Assembly (NCBI GenBank): GCA_958296235.1
Contig: OY282457.1
Coordinates: 62,001-126,000, forward strand
Source of the DNA: an uncultured Candidatus Binatia bacterium
GTDB lineage: Bacteria; Desulfobacterota; Binatia; Bin18
Direction of reading: 5' to 3'
Length of the DNA: 64,000 bases
Under the pieces are notes generated by a model. It made no database searches. It was not told the origin of the DNA and saw only the letters and a program-made list of their open reading frames with translations. The stretch's first letter is position 1. Each line of letters opens with the position of its first letter. The position numbers were made by a program, and so were the translations under genes. Positions 748-63,406 of this stretch are shown one piece after another.

Positions 748-767
748 AATCATTGTAGGAGGTGCGT

Positions 768-1355
768 ATGGGACAGATTGAAGTCCTCAGTCCGGTTGGA
801 GAAGCGCAAGTCGGCGATCTGCCGCTTGCCCGACGAGACCGGAACTTACAAGGGAAAACAATCGGCTTTCTAAATAACCGCAAGGCCAACGCCGGCCTGC
901 TGCTCGAACAGGTGGAAGCGCTGCTGCACGAACGCTGTGGAGATTTCGCTGTTATTAAAGGTGAAAAGAATGCCTCACTCGGCGCACCCAAAGAGGTCAT
1001 GGCCCGCCTGTCAACCTGTGACGTGGTTGTCGCGGCCATAGGCGATTGAGGCTCATGCACGTCGTGGGGTCTCCACGACACCATTGAACTGGAAAAGCAG
1101 GGAGTTCCGACCGCCATCATTTGCAGCGACGAGTTTGCGCCGCTCGGCCGTGCCGAGTCCCGCACCCTGGGTATGAGCGGTGTGCCCATTGCCGTGATTC
1201 CCCATCCCCTGGCCGGTAATACGCCGCAGGTGGTACAGGCCAAAGCCGCGGCTGTGGTGGATGAAATTCTGGCTATTTTGACCCAGCCCGCGGAGCAGTT
1301 GGCCGACAGGTATCGCGGGCGGTTTCTTAAGCCGATGGGGAAAAAGATCGCATGA
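768..1355 (+). CDS. UGSC-family selenoprotein (Sec at in-frame UGA 1047-1049)
   Basis: An AGGAGG at 757-762 places the start at ATG 768. The frame meets UGA at 1047-1049 and continues open to a second UGA at 1353-1355, giving 195 residues with selenocysteine at position 94. The context reads AAIGD-U-GSC-TSWGLHD, which is the U-G-S-C signature that names the UGSC selenoprotein family known from environmental genomes. A GTCGTGG/CCACGAC stem with a GGTCT loop begins 11 bases after the UGA, as in bacterial SECIS elements. The C-terminal half (GVPIAVIPHPLAGN) continues the same fold. The Sec/Cys motif suggests a redox or thiol-dependent catalytic site; the biochemical role of the family is unknown. 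The gene's own terminator codon is also UGA, so UGA has both meanings in one message. Confidence 0.92.
1047..1079 (+). promoter_or_regulatory. Sec UGA codon and bacterial SECIS-like hairpin
   Basis: The UGA at 1047-1049 is followed by a perfect 7-bp stem, GTCGTGG (1061-1067) with CCACGAC (1073-1079), closing a five-base GGTCT loop. Stem distance and the GG-containing loop resemble the fdhF SECIS that SelB recognises. The helix also encodes protein, as in other bacterial SECIS elements. Confidence 0.85.
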
Positions 1356-28895: not shown

Positions 28896-29247
28896 GGGGG
28901 CGATCTGGTTTCGACGTGGGCTAGAAAGCCAGGGCTGCATGCCGGGGTTCTGTCCCGCCCGTAAAACGGACAGGCTGCAATTTAACTGCAGACGATTCTG
29001 AATACCTTCTTGCTGCCTAGTGCAGCTTGCGTCTTACCGACCCGCGCCCGTAGGGTTGGCTAAGGCGACACAAATCGGGATAGGGCGCGCATCGTGCCGA
29101 AGGGTGCGCGCCCGAAACTTTACTTTGGCTGGTCTGAGGGCATCCTGCTCGTAGGAGGCCCGAGGATGAGATAAAACTACGAGCTACGCATTGTAGATGC
29201 CTTGAGTGGACTACTCTCGGACGCGGGTTCGATTCCCGCCGCCTCCA
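28896..29247 (+). ncRNA. ssrA: tmRNA
   Basis: The 5' GGGGGCG...TGGTTTCGACG and the 3' GCGGG-TTCGATT-CCCGC T arm with CGCCTCC-A make the tRNA-like half; the acceptor arms pair with one G-T. The tag frame starts at GCA 28988 and reads ADDSEYLLAA before TAG at 29018-29020, ending in the -LAA type degradation signal. CCA is not encoded (ATCC follows). Confidence 0.95.
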
Positions 29248-29463
29248 TCCCTTTTGTTATTTTTTCTATTCCTGTCCGTTCCCTGAAAAGCCCTGAAGAC
29301 CCTGTGTTTGCAGGACTTTTTCTTTCCTGAAGGCCCTTCATGTTCCTTCGATCCTCATAAATCTACGGAGACCGGGCACAGCGTGCAATTGCCGCCGCGG
29401 GACGCTTCCACTCTGGACGCGCCGATGTGGCCCGCCGCCATGACGCCTATCTTGCCACGGCTT

Positions 29464-61156: not shown

Positions 61157-62170
61157 ATGCACAACGGACCGACCGGCCTTCAAGAAAAGACTCCACACCA
61201 GCTCTACGAGCATCTGGCGCAACTCGACAGCGGCTATACGCTGGACGCCTGCACACAATACGCAGCCTGGATTCATGAGATTCACGAGCTGAAACGCCGG
61301 CAGAACGCCGTCATACTGGCGCACAATTACCAACGCCCGGAGATTTTTGAGGTGGCTGACGTGATAGGCGATTCCCTCGAATTGGCCCGCCAGTCAAAGC
61401 AGGTTGCGTCTGACGTGGTTGTCTTTTGTGGTGTCCACTTCATGGCTGAAACGGCCAAGATCGTGAATCCTGAGCGCACGGTGCTCCTGCCTGACTTGCA
61501 GGCCGGCTGCTCTCTGGCCGAGAGCGTCACGGGGGAGGCCCTGGCTGACCGAAAGGAAGAGCTGCGCCAGGTATATCCCGATCTCCAGGTGGTCTGTTAC
61601 GTCAATACGACCGCGGATGTCAAAGCCGAATCTGATGTGTGTTGCACCTCGTCGAACGCAATCCAGGTGGTGGAAGCGCTTGACACCGAGAACATCCTTT
61701 TCGTGCCTGACGAGAATCTGGCCCGTTATGTCCAGAATGAAACCAGTAAGAATATTATTGCCTGGCAGGGGAACTGCTACGTTCATCATCAGATCACGCC
61801 GAAACAGATTCAAGAGGTACGGGACAAACTCCCGCAGGTAAAAGTGCTCGTCCACCCCGAGTGCCGGGAAGATGTGCTCGCCCTGGCGGATGCCGTGCTC
61901 TCAACCAGCGCCATGATGCGCTACGCCAAAGAAAGTCCGGCTCAGGAGTTTCTGATCGTCACGGAGTGCGGTCTGTCGGATCGCTTGCTGTTGGAAGTCC
62001 CGGAGAAGAAATTCTACAAGAGCTGCAAGCTGTGCGCCTATATGAAAATGATTACGCTCGAAGGGGTGCGGAACTCTCTGCGCGACGGACGTTTTGAGAT
62101 TACGCTGCCGGAAGAGACCCGGGTCAGCGCCCAGCGTTCACTTGACCGTATGCTGGCGCTCAAGGCATAG
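61157..62170 (+). CDS. nadA: Quinolinate synthase
   Basis: The protein has 337 residues. LAHNYQRPEIFEVADVIGDSLELA, VFCGVHFMAETAKI, CCTSSNAIQVVE, VLVHPECREDV and SCKLCAYMKMITLE are the family motifs; cysteines in FCGVHF, CCTSSN and CKLC would hold the [4Fe-4S] cluster. It condenses iminoaspartate and DHAP in de novo NAD synthesis. nadB and nadC are not in the window. Confidence 0.95.
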   Translation: MHNGPTGLQEKTPHQLYEHLAQLDSGYTLDACTQYAAWIHEIHELKRRQNAVILAHNYQRPEIFEVADVIGDSLELARQSKQVASDVVVFCGVHFMAETAKIVNPERTVLLPDLQAGCSLAESVTGEALADRKEELRQVYPDLQVVCYVNTTADVKAESDVCCTSSNAIQVVEALDTENILFVPDENLARYVQNETSKNIIAWQGNCYVHHQITPKQIQEVRDKLPQVKVLVHPECREDVLALADAVLSTSAMMRYAKESPAQEFLIVTECGLSDRLLLEVPEKKFYKSCKLCAYMKMITLEGVRNSLRDGRFEITLPEETRVSAQRSLDRMLALKA

Positions 62171-62179
62171 TATGCTCCT

Positions 62180-62866
62180 GTGGGCAGAGCAAACGAGGGC
62201 CAGCGCAGCGCAAAACAAATACCTCCGCGTGTCGCCGTTGATGCGGTGCTCTTTACCCTTACCCAGGGGGCCCTGCGCGCGCTGCTGGTGAAAATTAAGA
62301 AGGGTGGGTTCGCCGGCCGTTGGGCGTTCCCTGGGGGGCTGGTGCAGGTAGACGAATCGCTCGATGCCGCGGCCCAGCGCGAGTTGTATGAAAAAACAGG
62401 CGTGCAGGACCTCTACCTGGAGCAATTGTATACGTTTGGCAGTGCGACCCGGGACCCTTCCGCACGAACCGTGTCAGTCGCGTATTTTGCCCTTGTCCCG
62501 CCGCTTGCGCAGACTCCCCATCTCGGGGAAAAATACGCGGACATTGCCTGGTTTCCGGTGCATGATCTGCCCGAGCTGGCCTACGACCATAACGCCATAG
62601 CGGAATATGCGCTACGGCGGCTCCAGAGCAAATTGGGCTACGCGAATATTGTCTACAGTCTCCTGCCGCGGGAATTTACGGTTGCGGAGCTACAGGGGGT
62701 CTACGAAATCATCCTCGATCGTCAGTTGGATCGACGAAATTTCAGACGAAAAATTATCAGTTCCGGTCTGCTCAAGCCCCTCTTGAAAACACGGCGGGGC
62801 GCGCATCGACCGGCCCAACTCTATACGTTTTCCCAGCGCCAGCCCATGCAGCTTGACGTGCTATAA
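62180..62866 (+). CDS. nrtR: NrtR-like Nudix transcriptional regulator of NAD metabolism
   Basis: The protein starts at GTG 62180 (228 residues), nine bases after nadA. A Nudix domain (VDAVLFTLTQGALRALLV ... AFPGGLVQVDESLD) is followed by a winged helix (LPREFTVAELQGVYEIILDRQ, then RRNFRRKIISSGLL), the NrtR layout. The Nudix box reads RELYEKTG, with Lys for the second Glu, fitting a regulator that binds ADP-ribose without cleaving it. It probably represses the nadA promoter. Confidence 0.85.
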   Translation: MGRANEGQRSAKQIPPRVAVDAVLFTLTQGALRALLVKIKKGGFAGRWAFPGGLVQVDESLDAAAQRELYEKTGVQDLYLEQLYTFGSATRDPSARTVSVAYFALVPPLAQTPHLGEKYADIAWFPVHDLPELAYDHNAIAEYALRRLQSKLGYANIVYSLLPREFTVAELQGVYEIILDRQLDRRNFRRKIISSGLLKPLLKTRRGAHRPAQLYTFSQRQPMQLDVL

Positions 62867-62959
62867 CCGCCTGTGAGAGCCGGCTGCTGCGTGGTTGGGC
62901 CGGGTAGCGATGTATGGTAGCGTGAGGGTCGGCTCACCGACCGAAAGGAGATGGTACGC

Positions 62960-63406
62960 ATGGTCATCCGTATCGTAGGCGCCCTCATGCTCGTCTTGGG
63001 ACTTGGGGCTGTGCTCGCTGCACCAGGGCACTCTCCGGCTATTGTCCTGGCCGAGACGAGTCTGGCTGCCGAAACCGGGCCTGCGCCAGAAAAGCAACAA
63101 GCGGCAAGACCGCTCTCAACCCCTGCCAGTCTGCCTGCTACCTTATCGCCAGACTTGTTCAGCGGAGCGGTCAAAGACGGTTACGTCATTGCCCAAACCA
63201 TCCCGGACGTGTTAGCCGGGCTGCACTGCTACTGTGGCTGCGATCGGTCCATGGGGCACGGTAACCTCCTGGATTGCTTTGTGGATGATCACGCCGCTGG
63301 CTGAATGCACTGTTTGCACGAAGCGCAGGATGCGCAGGCATTATTTGAAGCAGGAGCCCCGCCAGAAGTTATCCGGGATTTTATCGATCAGAAGTACGGC
63401 CATTAG
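62960..63406 (+). CDS. PCYCGC-family exported selenoprotein (Sec at UGA 63302-63304)
   Basis: AAAGGAG nine bases before ATG 62960 sets the start. UGA at 63302-63304 is followed by an open frame of 33 codons to TAG at 63404-63406, giving 148 residues with Sec at 115. The product has a signal peptide, then LHCYCGCDRSMGHGNLLDCFVDDHAAG-U-MHC-LHEAQDAQ. The CYCGC motif and later C-x2-C position are those of the PCYCGC (lipo)protein family; here the first Cys is Sec. It should act in the envelope as a thiol/redox or metal-binding protein. Confidence 0.85.
63302..63335 (+). promoter_or_regulatory. Sec UGA codon and SECIS-like hairpin
   Basis: GCGC (63323-63326) pairs with GCGC (63332-63335) around AGGAT, 18 bases after the UGA; a TGC/GCA pair outside may extend the helix. 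It is shorter than the hairpin at 1061 but lies in the right window for SelB. Confidence 0.5.

Follow-up and report, generated by a model that had tools for sequence, protein, structure and literature searches.

A probable selenoprotein of the CYCXC family in a Candidatus Binatia genome, with hints of a distant relationship to CcmH

The gene at positions 62960 to 63406 of the window (the whole 64,000-nucleotide stretch of DNA analyzed here) very probably encodes a genuine selenocysteine (Sec)-containing CYCXC protein (OS_HP4, NF041379/PF13798), as judged from sequence comparison. With a UGSC family gene in the same window, it brings to two the genuine selenoproteins of known families confirmed in one Binatota genome. 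The Sec form itself is already catalogued; the part worth following is a possible link to CcmH, an accessory protein of cytochrome c assembly; this link is absent from the selenoprotein catalogues and is the newer element of this analysis. If true, this link would provide the first testable function for an orphan selenoprotein family, with CYCXC as a selenol version of the thiol-reduction step for apocytochromes or cuproproteins.

The gene and its family

With TGA read as Sec, the frame on the forward strand translates into a 148-residue product that ends at a TAG stop codon (MVIRIVGALML...LHCYCGCDRSMGHGNLLDCFVDDHAAG-U-MHCLHEAQDAQALFEAGAPPEVIRDFIDQKYGH). The single in-frame UGA is codon 115, in the context HAAG-U-MHC. 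The features of the locus are as follows (positions are those of the window):

61157 to 62170, forward strand: nadA homologue (quinolinate synthase), domain assigned in relatives
62180 to 62866, forward strand: NUDIX-NrtR-like regulator, a conserved neighbor, domains assigned in relatives
62944 to 62950, forward strand: Shine-Dalgarno-like AAAGGAG, 9 nt ahead of the ATG at 62960, from sequence
62960 to 63406, forward strand: CYCXC/OS_HP4 selenoprotein gene, 148 amino acids, probable Sec115, TAG stop
62960 to 63055, forward strand: hydrophobic N terminus, probable Sec signal peptide, from sequence with the boundary placed by eye
63227 to 63241, forward strand: CYCGC motif (Cys90, Cys92, and Cys94), cysteines invariant across the family
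63302 to 63304, forward strand: probable Sec-UGA, codon 115, TGA in 26 of 82 distinct relatives and Cys in the remaining 56
63311 to 63313, forward strand: Cys118 codon, second residue of UxxC, invariant in alignment A5
63323 to 63335, forward strand: SECIS-like hairpin GCGCA-GGA-UGCGC, with its loop beginning 23 nt past the UGA

The product matched the NF041379 model, "CYCXC family (seleno)protein," at 109.7 bits (E = 5.4e-32; equivalog cutoff, 90), and the pattern that this model describes, UxxC or CxxC after CYCxC, was present as HAAG-U-MHC downstream of CYCGC. All 41 of 41 diverse family members matched the same model, and across these members CYCGC, Cys106, Sec/Cys115, Cys118, and His111 were invariant. 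The Pfam model PF13798 (PCYCGC) matched residues 67 to 147, a span that includes the UGA, at 56.5 bits (E = 4e-15; gathering cutoff, 25 bits). Relatives of the protein also carried hydrophobic N-terminal segments. Compared with the Cys forms of PF13798, the window protein has all invariant Cys positions and CYCGC in common and differs in that Sec takes the place of the leading Cys in the C-terminal CxxC.

An earlier note on this DNA had proposed a selenoprotein of the Sec/Cys type in the PCYCGC family, with the family pattern running on past the UGA, and the profile matches, with the codon comparison below, bear it out. The same note suggested that the Sec form of the family was undescribed, and on this point it was mistaken. 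A catalogue from 2026 counts OS_HP4/PF13798, with the motif UxxC, among the known selenoprotein families and gives a 2007 study of Olavius symbionts as the source (PMC13188914); a list from 2022 likewise has OS_HP4 with UxxC (PMC9312934). Given these entries and the NF041379 model, whose cutoff the gene passes, the Sec form is already described. The Pfam entry name is silent on Sec, which might suggest a new family, but NF041379 and the OS_HP4/PF13798/UxxC entry refute that reading, and we give it practically no weight. The window gene shares PF13798, a single Sec, and UxxC with CYCXC/OS_HP4 (NF041379; Zhang and Gladyshev 2007; PMC13188914 Table 1), and nothing essential differs: the family takes its name from an Olavius symbiont, and the window gene is from Binatota.

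The UGSC gene (759 to 1355, forward strand; TGA at 1047) matched NF041046 at 145 bits (cutoff, 125) and is a real selenoprotein gene, also of a known family. The earlier count of two selenoproteins in 64 kb was thus right. The UGSC protein, with the motif UGSC, belongs to the same genome and uses the same machinery as the CYCXC protein but is unrelated to it. The window also contains a tmRNA gene (28896 to 29250; Rfam RF00023).

Selenocysteine or stop at codon 115

To compare relatives, we combined a search of 58 related genomes with 80 loci from named genomes; 82 distinct sequences were counted at the Sec/Cys site, with three degenerate or divergent loci left out. The site was TGA in 26 of the 82 and Cys in the other 56, and TAA, TAG, or another residue occurred in none. 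Every one of the seven genomes of the genus had TGA at the same position, as did seven of the eight genomes with a match from other genera of the family; the eighth (G008, locus L020) had TGC. Within the genus, dN/dS was 0.029 upstream of the UGA and 0.059 downstream, and the C-terminal 33 residues are therefore under selection. The earlier claim that Sec replaces a Cys at residue 115 agrees with this alignment, and on both points that the note said would tell against it, reads with a codon other than UGA and an unconserved C-terminal stretch of 33 residues, the outcome favored Sec.

The genome that carries the window encodes the full set expected of a bacterial selenoprotein genome: SelA (524.6 bits), SelB (385.7 bits), and SelD (309.8 bits), each beyond its curated cutoff, and a tRNA-Sec (68.6 bits) near selA, with the anticodon tca (UCA) by ARAGORN. 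Roughly 1 kb away from this full-length tRNA-Sec (L036:8299-8394) lies a second, shorter tRNA-Sec-like copy (L036:9298-9378, reverse strand), sited in a stretch that is repeated nearby, which looks like a partial duplication.

Could the UGA instead be an ordinary stop codon or a pseudogenizing nonsense mutation, with the downstream similarity a decaying remnant? UGA serves as a stop codon too in the same genome, and one relative (G016, locus L155) has the UGA form, yet SelA, SelB, and tRNA-Sec were not found above cutoff in its genome, which is rated 100% complete; a mis-binned contig, an assembly gap, or recent loss are the alternatives for that case. Against this reading, purifying selection persists downstream of the UGA, the window's genome has SelA, SelB, SelD, and tRNA-Sec complete, and UGA occupies the same codon in metagenome-assembled genomes (MAGs) of Binatota, Acidobacteriota, Rokubacteria, and Lambdaproteobacteria, where TAA and TAG never do. 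We therefore consider an ordinary stop highly improbable. Because the site holds only TGA or Cys and dN/dS past the UGA is 0.059, an origin by sequencing error or pseudogene formation is very unlikely, and the UGA is best read as selenocysteine. From gene anatomy and conservation, SelB and tRNA-Sec would almost certainly insert Sec at UGA115, guided by a small hairpin that lies 23 nt past that codon.

This hairpin (63323 to 63335) lies inside the longer stretch, 63302 to 63345, that the earlier note had put forward as the SECIS element. Folded alone, the longer stretch was not unusually stable (z = −0.31 versus shuffles); its minimum-energy fold is thus no better than that of shuffled sequences, and within those bounds the conserved hairpin is only a minor structure, with pairing probabilities falling to 0.11 to 0.16. 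We rejected that fold as the SECIS, but the hairpin within it stood: in wider context, four of its five pairs had probabilities of 0.74 to 0.77. Published criteria for bacterial SECIS elements are a loop of 3 to 9 nt, an upper stem of 4 bp or longer, G in the first two loop positions, a distance of 16 to 37 nt from the UGA, and a minimum free energy of −7.5 kcal/mol or lower (PMC13188914). The GGA loop, 5-bp stem, and 23-nt spacing fit these values; the energy is borderline, with the minimal hairpin (−5.4 kcal/mol) short of −7.5 and a 33-nt fragment at −8.4 kcal/mol.

Conservation also points to the hairpin. Its two Ala codons were GCG in 16 of 16 Sec genes of the class, and equivalent hairpins with G-containing loops were found in every other Sec lineage: GAGGCGC-UGGAU-GCGUCUC in family f2, CCAGGAG-GUC-CUCCUGG in Acidobacteriota, and GAGGCCC-GGU-GGGCCUC in a Lambdaproteobacteria MAG. 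Relative to protein-preserving synonymous recodings, the mean folding z was −1.55 for 27 Sec genes versus −0.22 for 57 Cys genes, a comparison between related sequences and hence not a formal test. Two side observations concern the hairpin. The Cys form in G008 (L020) still has a SECIS-like hairpin, and its genome keeps SelA; this gene is an apparent recent Sec-to-Cys reversion, after which a retained hairpin is expected in a SelA-keeping genome. In L031 and L033 (genomes G016 and G043), the motif is U-x3-C, in which Sec and Cys stand one residue farther apart, and the hairpin is shifted by the same 3 nt.

Possible relation to CcmH and function

Comparison of the CYCXC and CcmH family profiles with hhalign gave a probability of 92.6% (pairwise E = 4.6e-7; score, 42.1), and 60 column-shuffled controls reached at most 4.2% and a score of at most 19.3. 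The probability was 56% with CYCGC masked and 81% against one classical CcmH alone. By hmmscan, neither the read-through protein nor the 41 members matched the Pfam CcmH model, so formal CcmH membership is not claimed. These profile data hint that CYCXC is distantly related to CcmH.

A sequence search for a solved structure of the CYCXC family returned none. The predicted core (pLDDT, 96.9) comprised a helix (residues 10 to 27), a Cys-rich loop (28 to 56), and two further helices (57 to 71 and 76 to 87), with Sec at core position 56, where the second long helix begins. A thioredoxin fold was ruled out by this all-helical model. On this model the exported protein would consist of three helices, with the cysteine-rich loop between the first two, and Sec115 and Cys118 are predicted to form UxxC in the loop region that also holds the CYCGC cluster. 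CcmH forms a bundle of three helices, and its redox motif lies between the first and the second (PMC3884852); the best PDB fold match by Foldseek was the CcmH N-terminal domain (2kw0), a weak match (E = 1.4). A Pfam-confirmed CcmH relative, whose predicted structure has the same helix order as the CYCXC core, itself reached no better than E = 0.07 in comparison with known CcmH structures; the weak score of CYCXC therefore does not disqualify the match.

CYCXC shares profile similarity with the periplasmic domain of CcmH/NrfF (PF03918; 2HL7, 2KW0) and, by prediction, a common order of helix 1, Cys loop, helix 2, and helix 3 ending in (K/R)YG. It differs from CcmH/NrfF in having a longer loop, which carries additional Cys/His and UxxC, and in lacking the C-terminal membrane helix. 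How CYCGC and UxxC line up with the CxxC of CcmH is ambiguous. Within the same class, members of the CcmH family have LTCQCGC...YGEK, and in most Binatota CcmH homologues (A4; L131 and others) LTCQCGC...CNHxxC replaces the classical LRCxxCQ.

SCO1/SenC adjoins the gene in some relatives, and in others an HMA P-type ATPase, a rhodanese, and a DsbA-like protein are nearby. We hypothesize that CYCXC participates in periplasmic thiol/selenol chemistry or metal handling during cytochrome or copper-protein assembly. The likeliest job, put forward tentatively at a little short of an even chance, is that of a periplasmic selenol/thiol oxidoreductase distantly related to CcmH that would reduce, or help to metallate, the cysteines of exported cytochromes or copper proteins. 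A fuller proposal, and a more guarded possibility, would place CYCXC/PCYCGC within the CcmH/NrfF superfamily as a divergent branch: a thiol reductase that uses Sec in the assembly of exported cytochromes or copper proteins and that includes the U-x3-C variant of the two Binatota relatives.

Doubtful, though to be taken seriously, is the view that the protein binds metal (Cu, Zn, or Hg via conserved Cys/Sec/His) rather than acting as an oxidoreductase. The six invariant Cys/Sec residues and the invariant His, which hold across 41 diverse members, may ligate a metal instead of forming a redox pair. Gene neighbors of some relatives fit as well, namely SCO1 and the HMA ATPase, which is of the copper type. 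However, free exchange of Sec and Cys at UxxC is a usual sign of a redox site (see also PMC13188914), and the proposed homology to CcmH suggests thiol redox chemistry. The genus's own neighborhood was set aside as a functional clue: nadA and NUDIX-NrtR adjoin both Sec and Cys forms in Binatota and look like an NAD locus, so we drew no function for CYCXC from them.

Distribution

Among the papers searched, none dealt with selenoproteins in the phylum Binatota, and a search for phage homologues of the CYCXC protein returned none. The nearest records among named genomes were Candidatus Binatia/Binatota MAGs. Sec forms of CYCXC were also found in Acidobacteriota, Rokubacteria, and Lambdaproteobacteria MAGs, and Cys forms predominated in soil Binataceae, Obscuribacterales, and Actinomycetota. 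The family tree, built on 90 columns and with many forks unresolved, requires five Sec/Cys changes.
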